This document shows positions 46,771-54,035 of a stretch of 64,000 bases of DNA, piece by piece. The notes below the pieces were generated by a model. It was not told where the DNA came from. It was given only the letters and a program-made list of their open reading frames with translations, and searched no databases. The translations under genes and the position numbers were made by a program. Position 1 is the stretch's first letter. Each line of letters starts with the position of its first letter. The DNA comes from Oscillatoriales cyanobacterium (GTDB taxonomy: Bacteria > Cyanobacteriota > Cyanobacteriia > CACIAM-69d), in NCBI GenBank assembly GCA_004292515.1, contig RDXB01000028.1, positions 1 to 64,000 on the forward strand, written 5' to 3'.

Positions 46771-48708
46771 CTATGCAGGGTGCGTTGCGATCGCCTCAAT
46801 CGACTTGGCAGCATAGACTTCTACGGGTTCGCTGCGACCCTTAACATGCTGAGGTCCGAGGGATTTTAGGGAAATTTCAGGGCGATCGCGTAGCCCCAGT
46901 GCCGTGCGATCGTTCATCAAAATCGGATGATCAGGGAAGTCCTTCGTGAGGGATTCCAAACGAGCAGCCACATTCACCGCATCGCCAATCACAGTGTAAA
47001 TCAGCCGATCGGGTGAACCAATTTGGCCAGCGACGGCGTGGCCCGTGCTGATACCGATGCCGCTCTGAATCGAAGGCTCGCCGCGCGATTGGCGCTCGGC
47101 ATTCAGCCTGTTGAGGCGATCGCGCATGGCCAGAGCAGCCGAAACCGCACGCCATTCCGGATCGGGCACCGGCACCGGCACACCAAACACCACCACGATC
47201 GCATCCCCAATGAAGTTATTGACGTAGCCACCCCAAGGAGCGATCGCCTCCGTCATCGCGGTCATATATTCATTCAAAAACGCCACCACATCTTGCGGGT
47301 CGAGCTGTTCCGAGAGGGTAGAAAATCCGCGAATATCCGAAAACAGCACCGACACCCAGCAGGTTTGGCCACCCAACTCCACATCACCCTCCAACAACTT
47401 TTCACGCACAGCAGGCGACACCAACCGCCCAAAAATATTCAGTTCCCGCTCCCGAGCCTGCAAGCCCAGCACCATCCGGTTGAAGGTGTCCGCCAAAATG
47501 CCCACTTCGTCGTGACTGACAATCTCCACCTGCGCAGTGCTGAATCGTCCTAGACGCAACTCCTGAGCCGCTCGATTCAACAAATACAGCGGCCGCACAA
47601 TGCTGCGAGCCAGGGCCAAGGCACATAGGGTCACGATCGCCCCCACCAGAAAAACACTCGCGGCCGTCCGCTGGGCCAACGCATTCAGCGGACTCACGAA
47701 AATCGCTTCTGGCTCAGTAATCACCAACTTCCAAGGGCGGGTACTAAGCGGGGCAATTCCGGCAATTTCAGCTTGACCACTAAAGGGCGATCGATAGGCA
47801 CTGTTCCCCAAGGGAAGGGGACTAATACCCAAGGGGCCGTTAGGCGTGGGCAACGGTTTTGTCGAAGGCAACAGCCCCAACGACTGTCCCAAGGCAGGCA
47901 AGTTAAGGCTATCGATTCGACTAATTCCAAACTGAATTTTGGGATCAATAGCCCGTAGTTGCTGCGGCGACAAGGGAACAATACTGCGATAAAGCCAGCG
48001 GCGATCGGTATGGGCAATCACAATGCCAGAATGATCAACTAAAAATGCAGACCCTCCCCGCTTTTTACTGAGTCCATTCAACAATCGCCAAACAGCCTCA
48101 GCTCGCAATTTAATTGCAATTACTCCAATAATTTTGCGATTGCGACTATTCTTTGAAACCACCGGGACAGAAAAGAAAATTCCTGGATGCCCTGTGGTTG
48201 ATCCGACTGTCCATTCAGAAATATAGTTTTGACCGCGACGGGCTTCTTGAAAATAATCCCGAAAAGCATAGGACTTCCCAATATTATTGGGATTTGTCGA
48301 AATCAAGCATTTTCCTTGACGATCCAACAACAGCAACGAGAAATAGTCTGGGTTAGAGCTACGAACGTTCGCAATAGCCTGGACAGCATTGGTGCGGAGT
48401 GCTTGGGACTCTTTCTGGTTTTTTCCTATGCTAATTGCATTGGCAAATTGCCAAATATCATCATCATTAGCAACTTGAATAGCCACGCGCAATGTATCGA
48501 TCGCGAGTTGATCAAGCCGCGCTGCCACACTATCAGCCAGCAGTTCCAGATTGTGATATTCGGTAGCCTTAACCGTTGCCAGGCTTTGGCGCAGATTATA
48601 AAACGCCGTCAAACTCATTGGCAGCAAAGACGCAGCCAACAGCGCCACAGACAGCTTGGGCGCGATCTTCCAACGGGCGGGGTTGAGTCGCCGGAGCCAG
48701 CGGTTCAC
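46771..48708 (-). CDS. Membrane-bound class III nucleotide cyclase with dCache sensor and HAMP domain
   Basis: 645 residues from the GTG at 48708, chosen because GAGG lies 6 bp upstream; the frame is open back to 48900. Domains in order: a first membrane segment (KLSVALLAASLLPMSLTAF), a large dCache-like periplasmic sensor (about 45-345), a second segment (TAASVFLVGAIVTLCALALA), a HAMP linker and a C-terminal catalytic domain. Metal-binding Asp458 (LFSDIRGF) and Asp502 (FIGDAI), Thr572 (YTVIGD, a class IIIb feature), Asn579 and Arg583 are present. The usual substrate-selecting Lys before FIGD is Asn498, so the nucleotide specificity is uncertain. It sits in the same direction as a periplasmic binding protein and a CNBD-transporter. 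Confidence 0.9.
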   Translation of the reverse strand: MNRWLRRLNPARWKIAPKLSVALLAASLLPMSLTAFYNLRQSLATVKATEYHNLELLADSVAARLDQLAIDTLRVAIQVANDDDIWQFANAISIGKNQKESQALRTNAVQAIANVRSSNPDYFSLLLLDRQGKCLISTNPNNIGKSYAFRDYFQEARRGQNYISEWTVGSTTGHPGIFFSVPVVSKNSRNRKIIGVIAIKLRAEAVWRLLNGLSKKRGGSAFLVDHSGIVIAHTDRRWLYRSIVPLSPQQLRAIDPKIQFGISRIDSLNLPALGQSLGLLPSTKPLPTPNGPLGISPLPLGNSAYRSPFSGQAEIAGIAPLSTRPWKLVITEPEAIFVSPLNALAQRTAASVFLVGAIVTLCALALARSIVRPLYLLNRAAQELRLGRFSTAQVEIVSHDEVGILADTFNRMVLGLQARERELNIFGRLVSPAVREKLLEGDVELGGQTCWVSVLFSDIRGFSTLSEQLDPQDVVAFLNEYMTAMTEAIAPWGGYVNNFIGDAIVVVFGVPVPVPDPEWRAVSAALAMRDRLNRLNAERQSRGEPSIQSGIGISTGHAVAGQIGSPDRLIYTVIGDAVNVAARLESLTKDFPDHPILMNDRTALGLRDRPEISLKSLGPQHVKGRSEPVEVYAAKSIEAIATHPA

Positions 48709-49730
48709 AAACAACCTCGGGAAATTGCAAACAACAATGCAGCCTGTTTGGGCAAAGTGTTTCTCGAAGCAGAGCAAGGACGAGTTGGAATCTGGGTTGA
48801 CGTGGCTCGAATTTGATCTATCCGAGATTGTAAACGCGCAGAGCCAAGCAGTGACGATCAACGAGTAGCCACACCAAGACAACCGCCTCCCCTTAAGCAC
48901 CCCGAATGACCACTAAGGAGTTATTCACGCGACCAAGCATGGAATCCGCAGAGAAGTAAGGCAACTTACCGAAAGCAAGCACTATGATCATTAATCACTG
49001 TCTTAAACATTCTGAAAATTGTGACCAACTTTCAATAATTCATATGGCTTTCACTAGTAATGTACCCATTTCTTGTGCGATATCGATCCAATCGGCAAAA
49101 TGTGGGCTGCGGTCAGCCATCATCAGTGCTAGATCGACCTAGGAAATTGATCTTATGAATTTGCTCCGTGAATTTGCTCTGTGAATTGACTCTGTGAACC
49201 TGCTGATATGAGCCTACTAAATACTGATCTGTTTTGGGTTGACGATGACTTAAGCTGAGTTTATTAAAACGTTAAATGTAGTGGTTCCTTGATGGCTAGG
49301 TTCAATAGCGATTGAGAAGCGATCGGGAAAGATGTCGATTGTTTGATTTAGCTTGACATCATGATCCCGTGAAGAACGATGCCGCCATTGCCCGAACTAT
49401 GAAGTAACTCACTTGCTAAATGTATAGGGTCATGCAGAGAGGAAGTTGCCCCTAAAATCAGCAATGGATCAATAGGCTGAGGGAGTATCATCATTTGCCA
49501 AAACTGATTCTCAAATCATCAATTTCTCATGCCCCAAGGGTTTCTCACGCCCTAAGGATCGTAACAAGAAGCTTAAGCATCTTATCCCCCAAAATCTGGA
49601 CACGGTGGAATCAGAGTTTTAGACAAATTGAAGATAGATCCTAGATCAATGGATGGTGCGCTTGTGCCGTTGATCGCCTCACAATGTGGCGATCAATATG
49701 TGGCAATCAATAGCAACTTGTTAGCTCCAG
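48709..49730. other. 1-kb gene-free region upstream of the cyclase
   Basis: AT-rich. It contains a 13-bp imperfect array of GAATTTGCTCCGT-type units (about 49153-49190) and a family A copy (49485-49632). The small plus-strand frame at 49628-49885 is antisense to the binding-protein gene and looks non-coding. The cyclase promoter should be here. Confidence 0.55.
49485..49632. repeat. Family A MITE-like repeat, degenerate
   Basis: It begins TATCATCATTTGCC in the same context (GAGGGAG) as the copy at 25.0 kb. It contains ATCGTAACAAGAAGCTTAAGCATCTTATCCCCC as core and ends GGTGGAATCAGAGTTTTAGACAAATTG. Confidence 0.75.
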
Positions 49731-50789
49731 CTACTGATAGTAGTGATTTGTGGCATGGGCAAAGTCTTTATAGACTTTTGGCAAGTCCACGCCATACTTT
49801 TTTAGGCGCGACTCACGCATATACATCACGAAATTTTGGCTCTTGGTTGTGGGGATATCATGGGGCGATCGATGATTATCAATAATATCCACAGTCATCT
49901 TCGCTGCCACTTCACCCATTTCATAGGGCGAAATACCAACTGCCAGCATTCCACCATCATCCACATAGAATCCCCAGCATCCAATGTCAGGAATAGGAGA
50001 GTTTTCCACTGTCCATTTCATAACCTCCTTGGGAGGCACAACAGCATCATCCGTCGCAGATCGCCGCAACGTGTGGTAGTGCGTAATCAACAAAAAGTCA
50101 GCAATATCGCCAGAGTTCAGAATAAATTTCTTCCATTCCTCAAAGGTTGAAACCTTGCGGTGCTCAATCAATTTAATTGGCTGCCAATCAAACTCTTCCA
50201 TCTCGGCGTGGATTGCATCTGATGTTTCTGAGTCATCGGAGTAATGCACAATTCGCCGCTGATCAACCGGCAAAATTTGCAGAAAAATTTCCTTGAGTGA
50301 GGTGAATGGAATGCGCTCTAGGATTCCTGTGACATTGCTTGCAGTGTCGTAGCCATAGAGACTGGCTTCAGCGTTGACCCCCGTATAGACCGTATTGATT
50401 TTGGGATTATTGTTGAAGTACTTTGCAACAAATGCCTGGGCATTATCATCAACTGAAATGACTACATTGGGTTCCCATCTCTCGATGAGTCGGCGAGCCA
50501 CCTGACCAGCTTTTTCCTTATAAGACTGTCCAGGATTTCGCTTGGTATCCATGTAGTGATATTGGATCGAATAGGGTTTTTTCTCTAACACCCAGTTCAG
50601 ACCCACATTGATATCCTTAGTCCAAGCAAAGTCGGTGGCGTAGCTGTCTAGCACCAAGACTCGTGGCTTGTTGGAGTTGCCAAATGCAAAGAAAACCAGG
50701 GTACAAATCAAAAAGAAGGCGATCGGGAGTTTCTGGAGTTGCTGGCTCCAACGACTGGGCCATTGAAAGCGAGGGAGGAGTCGGTGCAT
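49731..50789 (-). CDS. Periplasmic ABC-type substrate-binding protein (PF04392-like)
   Basis: 352 residues. An N-terminal signal or anchor (LPIAFFLICTLVFFAFG, about 21-37) precedes a type I periplasmic binding fold: RVLVLDSYATDFAWTKDINVGLNWVLEK, then WEPNVVISVDDNAQAFVAKYF and INTVYTGVNAE. This matches the ABC_sub_bind group often used as ligand sensors. No ABC permease or ATPase genes are near. Its neighbours are a DASS transporter upstream and a cyclase downstream, all on one strand, so it may be a receptor rather than a transporter part. Confidence 0.8.
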   Translation of the reverse strand: MHRLLPRFQWPSRWSQQLQKLPIAFFLICTLVFFAFGNSNKPRVLVLDSYATDFAWTKDINVGLNWVLEKKPYSIQYHYMDTKRNPGQSYKEKAGQVARRLIERWEPNVVISVDDNAQAFVAKYFNNNPKINTVYTGVNAEASLYGYDTASNVTGILERIPFTSLKEIFLQILPVDQRRIVHYSDDSETSDAIHAEMEEFDWQPIKLIEHRKVSTFEEWKKFILNSGDIADFLLITHYHTLRRSATDDAVVPPKEVMKWTVENSPIPDIGCWGFYVDDGGMLAVGISPYEMGEVAAKMTVDIIDNHRSPHDIPTTKSQNFVMYMRESRLKKYGVDLPKVYKDFAHATNHYYQ

Positions 50790-51031
50790 AGGATTTCTAA
50801 GGTTCTAGCTCGTTAGCAGAGATGGATTTTGAGGAAATAGTTGATCGCTACGGTTGAGATTTGTAGACGATCTCAACCGCCGGGGTTACTGGTCAATCTA
50901 GTCGATCTGAGTGCAGCCTAGATACAGCCTAAATGCAGCGTCATACAACAATAACCGGATGCCCCAGCAGCGAGAATCAGCAGATAATCACAGGTCATCA
51001 ATTCCTGTTTCTTTCAATGATGGCAGTTGTG

Positions 51032-52888
51032 CTACAGGATCCCCATATACCGAAGGTATCCTAGTGATAAATAGATGGACAAGAAGCGAATCACCGTTGA
51101 CAGAAAGTTTCCCTTCAACAACAGCTTTTCGTTAAATAGCGGTTGTGGTCGATTTTCGAGCAACTCTTGAAACTGTAGATAGTACGAGCATTGGTAAGGG
51201 AAAAACCAAGCATCGCTGATGTTCAGAATGATTGCTCCAATGAGCCAGGGGTTAACACCGTTAGCTTCTGACATTGGGATCAAGATCGTAGCAAAAATGG
51301 CGACGGCTGTCGTATTGGGGATTACAAACCGAACGACCAAGATTGTGACACTCAGCAGAAAGATGAAGAGTGAAAAGTTACTTTTCATGGAGTCACTGAG
51401 CCAGGTCAGGTAGCTACCAAAGTGAGTATCTAACCCCAAGTAAGACATGGCTTCCGAGATTCCAACCAAGCTACCCAGCAGTATCAGAAATGGCCAGTCA
51501 ATCTGCGTCCGAAACTCATTCTTTTTTAGGAGACCAAAAGCAAGTACCAAAAAGAGAACGCCTAACCCAATCCAGGGGAGTTGAATTTTATGAATAGAGG
51601 CTGTGACAATACCCAGGAGTAAAATCACTGTGCTGATCAGCGAGATCCATTCTTGGCTACTGAGCGGCCCCAGAGTTTCAACTTGGGCTTCAACCTGTTG
51701 ACGCGAGATTTGTAGTTTTGTTCGATTTCTAAACAGGAAAAATGTTGACAGGAAATACAACACTAAGGTTGCCAACCCAATTACCAAGCTCGCTTGCAAC
51801 CAATAAATCCAGCTAAATTGTTGCTGGCTTTGAATTGGTAGTAAGCCATAGACTACAAAGTTGGCAGACTTACTACTCAGAAAAACATGGGAGAGCAGGC
51901 TCGCGCCGCTGAACGCCGCAAAGGATAGATGGGTGGCAGCTCGACTTCCCTGCTTGATGCCTGTGGCATCGATCGTGTCCGATAAAATTGGACCCAACAG
52001 ACCAATTCGACCATTGGCGGAGGGTAAAATTGGGGTCATGAGCAACCCAGTCACGAACATCGAAACGGCGTACCAAAATTCGGTTTTAGGGATGTAGCGC
52101 GATAGCCATAAAACCAGCCGATAGGTTAAGCCTGAACCCATTAAAACGGCTCCCAAACCAAATAGGCTGAGAGCCATAAAAAAGCTACCCGAGGCAAATC
52201 CAGCTAAGATGACGTTGCTCGGAGCAATATCCAAAATGAGCAGGGATAAGATGCAAAATAGGCCAGGAATGAATTCCGGCACCATCCCAAAAACCCACAT
52301 GACGATCGTGGACGAAAGCACGAGCAGAAACATTTGGGAATTCCAGTCGAATTCCGTAAGATTTCGTAGCCATAGATAGAGCAATACTGGCACAACGACG
52401 GATAAGATCCAGCCGCAGGACTGCACCCAATCTGTGGTTTTGAGTTGCACGATCGGGCTAATCGGCAGGCTGGGCTTTATGGGGCGATCGCCATAATGAC
52501 TCAGCAGCGAGGTATAAAATCGATCCAGCGCTTCACTACTGGCGGAGGTGACTTTGGAGATCGCCTCGCGGGGTAGAGCAATGACTTCGGTAGCACCGAT
52601 CGCCACTGCGTCGGCCATGTAGCATTCTGATGAAACGGCAGCTTCTTCACCGACGAATCCCTGTTCGACTTCTGCGACCACGCGACTCCCAGCTAAGAGT
52701 TGCACCTTGCCGCTACGGACAAAGTAAAGCATCAGAGCTGGGCTACCCGATTGAAACAGTATTTCACCGTCTTCCAAGCAATGCTCAACGGCATAGGGAA
52801 CGACCCTAGCTAGTTCTTGGACTGAGCATTCAGAGAGGATGGGCGCAGTCCGCAACTCCTTCGCCATCTGCTTGAGATTTACAATCAT
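51032..52888 (-). CDS. SLC13/DASS-family transporter with N-terminal cyclic-nucleotide-binding-like domain
   Basis: 618 residues. Residues 1-135 form a CNBD/Crp-like beta barrel (LEDGEILFQSGSPALMLYFVRSGKVQLLAG ... VEQGFVGEEAAVSSECYMADAVA). The phosphate-binding cassette keeps Gly80-Glu81, but the usual Arg is Met91, so ligand binding may be lost or altered. Residues 150-618 have 11-12 membrane segments with DASS-type motifs (PSANGRIGLLGPILSDT, VIPNTTAVAIFATILIP). The family carries Na+-coupled dicarboxylates, sulfate or similar anions. Confidence 0.85.
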   Translation of the reverse strand: MIVNLKQMAKELRTAPILSECSVQELARVVPYAVEHCLEDGEILFQSGSPALMLYFVRSGKVQLLAGSRVVAEVEQGFVGEEAAVSSECYMADAVAIGATEVIALPREAISKVTSASSEALDRFYTSLLSHYGDRPIKPSLPISPIVQLKTTDWVQSCGWILSVVVPVLLYLWLRNLTEFDWNSQMFLLVLSSTIVMWVFGMVPEFIPGLFCILSLLILDIAPSNVILAGFASGSFFMALSLFGLGAVLMGSGLTYRLVLWLSRYIPKTEFWYAVSMFVTGLLMTPILPSANGRIGLLGPILSDTIDATGIKQGSRAATHLSFAAFSGASLLSHVFLSSKSANFVVYGLLPIQSQQQFSWIYWLQASLVIGLATLVLYFLSTFFLFRNRTKLQISRQQVEAQVETLGPLSSQEWISLISTVILLLGIVTASIHKIQLPWIGLGVLFLVLAFGLLKKNEFRTQIDWPFLILLGSLVGISEAMSYLGLDTHFGSYLTWLSDSMKSNFSLFIFLLSVTILVVRFVIPNTTAVAIFATILIPMSEANGVNPWLIGAIILNISDAWFFPYQCSYYLQFQELLENRPQPLFNEKLLLKGNFLSTVIRFLSIYLSLGYLRYMGIL

Positions 52889-53537: not shown

Positions 53538-54035
53538 ATGAGCGATCGCCCGTTTTTTGAGTTTGAAATGGATTTTGTAGAAGGGCTGCGATGCATTCCC
53601 ATGGTGGTGCGCTACCGACTCGATACGATCGGGATCAAACTCAAGCTTGTGCACTGGAATCAACTCACAGAGTCCGAGCGCTTGCAGTTGGTTGACTGGC
53701 CCTGTGAAACGGCTGTGGAGCAAACCGCCTACCGCGATCGACTCCGGCAGTTGGTGGCAGGGCGATTGGGGGATGTGCCCAAAGATTTACTGATCGAAGC
53801 ATCACCCCTTTGGGAGTCGAGCGCAGTGCCTGAGGGGGTTGCCACCAAAGTGGCAGAGGAAGGGATGACCCTTAGTTCAGAGGCTTGGCGATCGCTGACG
53901 GTGCTCCAGCGCTTTGCCTTGATCAAGCTCAGTCGAGCGGGCCATGAAAATCGCAATTTCCCGATCGCTTTGCGGGAGTTTGGGTTGCTGGGGCAAACAG
54001 GGGCGCAATCGCCTACAACTACAACACCAAACTAA
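53538..54035 (+). CDS. narM: Nitrate reductase-associated protein NarM
   Basis: 165 residues. Conserved start FFEFEMDFVEGLRCIPMVVRYRLDTIGIKLKL and later VLQRFALIKLSRAGHENRNFPIALREFGL match the cyanobacterial NarM/nitrate reductase-associated family. NarM is needed for assembly of an active ferredoxin-nitrate reductase. It is usually near narB/nrt genes, but none is in this window. A hairpin GCTGCCCA ... TGGGCAGC follows at about 54088-54132. Confidence 0.9.
   Translation: MSDRPFFEFEMDFVEGLRCIPMVVRYRLDTIGIKLKLVHWNQLTESERLQLVDWPCETAVEQTAYRDRLRQLVAGRLGDVPKDLLIEASPLWESSAVPEGVATKVAEEGMTLSSEAWRSLTVLQRFALIKLSRAGHENRNFPIALREFGLLGQTGAQSPTTTTPN

Follow-up and report, generated by a model that had tools for sequence, protein, structure and literature searches.

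Secondary carriers that depend on a substrate-binding protein (SBP) are known from three classes, namely TRAP, TTT, and, since 2025, TAXI-GltS (PMC12344293). The case for TAXI-GltS was built on translational coupling, on fusions, and on binding data for the SBP, and its authors suggest that a carrier can use an SBP owing to some feature of the elevator mechanism, a proposal that further classes would test. Here, we describe a locus in a 64-kb window (the whole stretch of DNA analyzed, contig RDXB01000028.1, positions 1 to 64,000) of a Limnothrix-like cyanobacterium, in which consecutive genes encode an SLC13/DASS-type carrier with an N-terminal cyclic-nucleotide-binding domain (CNBD), a PF04392-type SBP, and a class III cyclase with a dCache sensor domain. 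By analogy with TAXI-GltS, carrier and SBP on balance probably form an SBP-dependent, DASS-type secondary uptake system with an optional third-gene sensor. Such a system would be an extra class beside TRAP, TTT, and TAXI-GltS. An open-license literature search returned no description of a carrier-SBP system of this kind.

This explanation leads because the constant unit is carrier plus SBP. The search for loci went from Massilia outward via its family, order, and phylum, and gene neighborhoods were then read. At 31 of 31 loci (4 cyanobacterial and 27 proteobacterial), the carrier lies directly upstream of a close relative of the SBP and on the same strand. The carriers at these loci belong to one divergent SLC13/DASS subfamily, with the CNBD present in all except one (30 of 31). 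A 4-base stop/start overlap (ATGA or GTGA), with the SBP being the frame that begins there, is observed at 22 loci; the two genes in the window are adjacent with a gap of 242 bp, whereas most Proteobacteria show the overlap instead. More distant PF04392-like SBPs (25 to 32% identity) served as a specificity control, and an SLC13 gene was found beside none of these 15. Genome sampling is uneven, and these counts treat near-identical species separately, as is the case for the three Limnothrix and for G1183, G1083, and G1052, which make up one close group. A further SBP match, in G1099, stands outside the 31 loci.

Across 386 cyanobacterial genomes, the carrier family and the SBP family are both present in the same four, comprising three Limnothrix and one member of another family (G211). 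The carrier of G211 is split across two contig ends, and the SBP lies 135 bp downstream of its C-terminal piece. The next relatives in the contig scan come from Massilia and Duganella (37 to 38% identity), and in each the SBP overlaps the carrier stop by 4 bases. A locus labeled Candidatus Pelagibacter (L012, label unverified) encodes the SBP together with a carrier lacking the CNBD; because the pair is kept here without this domain, the carrier-SBP bond appears as the constant part. For most groups, the carrier tree and the SBP tree agree. Limnothrix forms a deep, separate branch and is not nested in the Burkholderiales that carry all three genes, so that the triple either is ancient and was lost in places or arose by assembly on more than one occasion; the trees come from a quick method and contain long branches, which makes their deep order unsure. 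Spread of the module by plasmids was considered and rejected, as a scan of PLSDB gave only matches to ordinary Pantoea SLC13 carriers (27 to 32%). Among the neighbors of the pair, we also observe by eye a TIR-like and WD40-repeat protein encoded directly upstream of the CNBD-SLC13 gene of G211 (L014, 1352-5764), and Cas3-like and Cas8-like genes that start directly after the SBP in G1052 (L114, 8706-13050).

The window locus consists of three real open reading frames. As the initial annotation had described, they are consecutive on the minus strand:

46771..48900, minus strand: dCache-HAMP-class III cyclase (dCache_1 E 2.8e-25, HAMP 1.3e-9, Guanylate_cyc 5e-23; start codon uncertain)
46813..47355, minus strand: class III catalytic domain of the cyclase (NNFIGD motif at 47203-47220)
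47944..48549, minus strand: periplasmic dCache_1 sensor domain of the cyclase (domain scan)
48901..49730, no strand: intergenic gap between SBP and cyclase (sequence comparison, Rfam)
49731..50789, minus strand: PF04392-type periplasmic binding protein (the SBP), 352 aa (PF04392 E 2e-9, 37.5 bits, cut-off 25.9)
50673..50756, minus strand: N-terminal helix of the SBP, residues 12-39 (AlphaFold2 model)
50790..51031, no strand: intergenic gap between carrier and SBP, 242 bp (sequence comparison)
51032..52888, minus strand: CNBD-SLC13/DASS carrier, 618 aa (Na_sulph_symp E 8.8e-27 and cNMP_binding E 4.1e-12, both above cut-off)
52007..52024, minus strand: hairpin 1 (HP1) motif PSANGR of the carrier, residues 289-294, in place of SNT (alignment)
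52499..52888, minus strand: N-terminal CNBD of the carrier, approximately residues 1-130 (PF00027 across residues 38-113)
52619..52651, minus strand: equivalent of the phosphate-binding cassette, GEEAAVSSECY, residues 80-90, with the conserved Glu present and Tyr in place of the canonical Arg (family alignment; alignment to PKG cassettes)

The gap between SBP and cyclase measures 0.83 to 1.0 kb, depending on the GTG or TTG start chosen for the cyclase. Its length is kept in the other Limnothrix (851 to 870 bp), while its sequence is not conserved (43 to 44%); no conserved RNA was found in the intergenic gaps, and the SBP-cyclase gap has no Rfam match. The three window genes have no ABC permease or ATPase gene between or beside them, which bears out what had been noted before, and with no ABC partner adjoining it we reject the SBP as an ordinary ABC-importer SBP. 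The earlier remark on the missing ABC permease proved the most important clue: the constant partner of the SBP is the SLC13 carrier. Domain scans covered a minority of the neighbors of SBP relatives. At L038, two ABC ATPase-/permease-like genes are located downstream of the pair, convergent and on the other strand. In the window, a gene for the nitrate reductase maturation protein NarM (53538-54035) is divergent to the carrier. Both other Limnothrix (L009 and L015) have a like neighbor, and none was seen beside the pair at loci outside Limnothrix.

We propose that the membrane-anchored periplasmic SBP captures a solute and, once loaded, would pass it to the divergent elevator carrier of DASS type, in the way that a TRAP SBP serves a membrane subunit sharing this fold. 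In the cytosol, the CNBD-like domain would be an optional regulatory domain with an altered ligand pocket. Where the third gene is present, it may encode a dCache sensor that responds to this solute or to the loaded SBP, with an interchangeable output that is either a cyclase (Limnothrix and three Burkholderiales) or a SpoIIE phosphatase with a STAS protein (two genomes). Such a sensor would tell the cell about the solute rather than open the carrier. Delivery by the SBP to the carrier is what we infer from genomics, as are the transport direction, the contact between sensor and SBP, and the regulatory role of the CNBD. Several points weigh against this proposal. No SBP-SLC13 fusion was found among the sampled genomes, no substrate is assigned to the pair, with hints that are weak and conflicting, and a dCache sensor with an output domain adjoins the pair in only 8 of the 31 loci. 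More distant PF04392 SBPs adjoin sensor kinases, which indicates sensory members in the PF04392 superfamily, and the observed gene coupling is also compatible with a signaling complex of carrier and SBP.

In the AlphaFold2 model, the SBP has a type-I binding-protein fold together with a single helix at the N-terminus. Members of the family share a hydrophobic stretch in this region, and the modeled helix is likely an uncleaved membrane anchor. The nearest PDB folds are 3lkv, the Clostridioides difficile SBP CD0873, which binds Tyr, and TrpX with L-Trp; TorT and LuxP also appear among the type-I folds in the Foldseek list. Two of the distant PF04392 SBPs overlap by 4 bases with genes for 1371-aa CHASE-PAS hybrid histidine kinases (L123, 6511-11597; L125, 5989-11078), and such binding-protein/kinase pairs would be a family of their own.

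The transport domain of the carrier matches PF00939 with 94.7 bits (cut-off 27) and TIGR00785, the sodium-coupled anion symporter model, with 109 bits, below the cut-off of 198.6; PF06808 (DctM) also matches part of the protein. The best PDB matches in Foldseek are the DASS carriers DiT2.1, NaS1, and LaINDY, together with Pho90 and TRAP SiaQM, followed by CNBDs. The structure model used is of low confidence (pTM 0.53), and for this reason we make no residue-level claims from it. In DASS carriers, the SNT motifs serve Na+ and substrate, and Arg159 of LaINDY, conserved in exchangers, fills the Na1 site and is interpreted as a surrogate for Na+ (PMC7553777). Both SNT motifs are absent from the family described here, where P[ST]xN[GA]R and PNT/PIS/PIN-type motifs take their place. 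Every member retains the HP1 Arg, which the alignment places opposite the Arg of DiT exchangers, and the position equivalent to the second-site (Na2) His of exchangers is not His. The replaced SNT motifs and the invariant HP1 Arg together make Na+ coupling of the carrier appear doubtful. The transport-domain motifs that the carrier does have are strongly conserved.

Carrier, SBP, and cyclase occur together in six genomes (G000, G033, G045, G404, G488, and G867). Three of these are Burkholderiales (G404, G488, and G867) with the dCache-HAMP-cyclase and its two companions in the order and strand of the window, the SBP-cyclase gap being approximately 50 to 65 bp in G404 and G488. Cyclases of the latter two match the window cyclase end to end with 520 and 511 bits, compared with 171 bits, in the catalytic part only, for the best non-module cyclase (16 genomes, including approximately 16 other cyclases in the window's genome), and by these scores the module cyclases are an orthologous group. 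Within the Massilia family (246 genomes), only G404 and G488 contain full-length orthologues, and five more genomes match the window cyclase in the Cache-HAMP half only; of these five, the one that was read resembles a fusion of a protein kinase with Cache. To judge from its sequence relatives, the dCache-HAMP sensor is used in other architectures too. One frame (L088, 1477-4098), whose genome lacks the SBP, resembles a protein kinase with a dCache-HAMP sensor of this kind behind it.

In two further genomes, G1175 (L118, 8152-11131) and G1202 (L120, 8507-11614), the third slot is occupied by a protein that combines dCache, SpoIIE, and HATPase_c_2 domains, and a STAS protein is encoded next (recognized by domain scan in G1175 and by sequence likeness in G1202). 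A homologous Cache domain takes the same place in these SpoIIE variants as in the cyclase, and since dCache is retained with SpoIIE and STAS instead of the cyclase, the sensor part appears to be kept and the output swapped. In G1140 and G1190, a Cache-like membrane protein is encoded upstream of the pair (domain-scanned in G1140 only, with weak matches). The initial annotation had linked all three genes as one module and suggested a co-occurrence check, with absence elsewhere counting against the link. When this check was run, the link held for the carrier-SBP pair, which is common to Cyanobacteria and Proteobacteria, and the triple recurred in the same order in the three Burkholderiales; it held in part for the cyclase, present at 6 of 31 loci and with its output swapped in two.

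Class III cyclases rely on defined residues for catalysis and for purine selection. All five aligned module cyclases keep the two metal Asp and the transition-state Asn and Arg, and share the motifs FSDIRGF, FIGDA, and GDAVN[VI]AARLE (5 of 5). The adenine-specifying Lys at the purine position is Asn (NNFIGD) in each of the five, and the nucleotide specificity may thus be unusual.

The main rival explanation is a sensory complex in which SBP and carrier act mainly as co-receptors (a transceptor) controlling the dCache sensor, much as LuxP-LuxQ or TorT-TorS rely on a type-I binding protein, with transport being secondary. It earns this place for two reasons, namely that the third gene encodes a dCache sensor and that distant PF04392 SBPs adjoin sensor kinases. 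A sensor in the third-gene slot, when present, is always dCache, and the kinases coupled to distant SBPs are of the CHASE or HAMP histidine type. Loss of the carrier's SNT and TPPN-like motifs is also in line with it, as is the listing of TorT and LuxP by Foldseek, although these matches reflect the common fold only. However, the pair persists although no adjacent Cache protein was found at 21 of the 31 loci, and the strong conservation of the transport-domain motifs likewise speaks against such a complex. We regard co-reception as possible, if on the unlikely side.

A narrower proposal, compatible with SBP-dependent uptake, is that the pair takes up phosphate or an organophosphate, in the manner of the yeast SPX-DASS carriers Pho87/90/91. 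Genes for phosphorus acquisition lie next to the pair in seven genomes from approximately five lineages, being alkaline phosphatase in G401 and G1079, a PF04185 phosphoesterase in G1183 (domain-scanned) and in G1083 and G1052 (sequence likeness), and two PBP_like_2 (PstS-like) SBP genes in G426 and G450. Pho90, moreover, matches the carrier in its DASS fold and bears a regulatory domain at its N-terminus. On the other side, no Pho box stands out upstream of carriers. The window contains the tandem CTTAACCC-caa-ATTAACTT 159 bp upstream of the carrier start; six sites of equal score occur in the 64 kb, and this candidate is absent from the other two Limnothrix. Proteobacterial candidates upstream of carriers are no better than shuffles in 31 regions, bar one marginal site at L041 (4% of shuffles), and Pho-box regulation of the carrier was consequently rejected. 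HPPD is found beside the pair in G639 (domain-scanned) and probably in G732 (sequence likeness); these neighbors and the SBP's nearest folds, Trp and Tyr binders included, point to aromatics instead, and phosphate import is in our view unlikely. A TAXI-like NMT1_3 gene lies upstream of the pair in G426 and G450. At L038 (2504-6552) and L041 (11317-14234), two PBP_like_2 (PstS-like) genes and a membrane-anchored NMT1_3 (TAXI-type) protein are encoded upstream of the carrier, giving up to four binding proteins per apparent operon.

The initial annotation had suggested a gate, in which a cyclic nucleotide produced by the dCache cyclase would bind to the CNBD and thereby control the carrier. This would fit a cyclase that retains the metal Asp and transition-state Asn and Arg and accompanies the module in six genomes, and a CNBD (PF00027, 46.4 bits, cut-off 27.5) that keeps its Glu within a strongly conserved, changed cassette, with GxE in 30 of 30 domains. 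However, in the family alignment with PKG cassettes as reference, the phosphate-binding Arg is missing from all 30 CNBDs, its position being Tyr in 28 and Cys in 2, and the pocket is identical in character at loci with and without a cyclase, so that canonical cAMP/cGMP binding and a cyclase-supplied ligand are disfavored. No cyclase is adjacent at 25 of the 31 loci, and at two the output is a phosphatase. Gating by the cyclase product is thus unsupported and in our view improbable. Because the altered cassette motif is itself conserved, a ligand other than a canonical cyclic nucleotide is possible. The open-license literature search found no description of an SLC13 carrier with a CNBD. Finally, that the three genes are unrelated, chance neighbors would suit the Limnothrix gaps of 0.24 and approximately 0.9 kb and the nonconserved intergenic DNA, but is scarcely credible given the same order in distant phyla, the translational overlaps, and the pairing at every locus.

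Several known systems share features with this locus. In LuxP-LuxQ and TorT-TorS, a type-I binding protein stands beside a membrane sensor, whereas here a carrier is the constant partner, and the sensing protein has a cyclase or SpoIIE phosphatase as its output. Pho87/90/91 bear an N-terminal cytosolic regulatory domain on a DASS carrier, SPX, which binds inositol pyrophosphates. Pho90 is among the carrier's structural matches, but the domain in our family is CNBD-like, and the yeast carriers work without an SBP. The DASS/SLC13 carriers proper (VcINDY, LaINDY, and DiT1/2) have PF00939, above cut-off in the window carrier, and provide its best structural matches; the window carrier differs in its replaced SNT motifs, an exchanger-type HP1 Arg without the second-site His, an SBP partner, and a CNBD. 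TRAP systems (DctPQM and TAXI-TRAP) have the SBP-dependent secondary uptake proposed here and, according to the sections cited, a membrane subunit that shares the DASS fold (PMC12344293), and the DctM model matches part of our carrier. In contrast to TRAP, this carrier is PF00939, its SBP is PF04392 and not DctP/TAXI, a CNBD is present, and there is no DctQ at the window locus. In TAXI-GltS of Bordetella pertussis, an SBP gene is translationally coupled to an elevator-type secondary carrier without a TRAP/ABC membrane component; its carrier is, however, GltS/ESS and its SBP is TAXI, and a regulatory domain or sensor gene is not seen in the sections describing it (PMC12344293). A DASS carrier with its own SBP would be such a further class, and since the fold is common to DASS and TRAP, a comparison of the two could reveal the contribution of an SBP to an elevator. 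The family is also notable for its unusual regulatory domain and for a sensor whose outputs can be exchanged.

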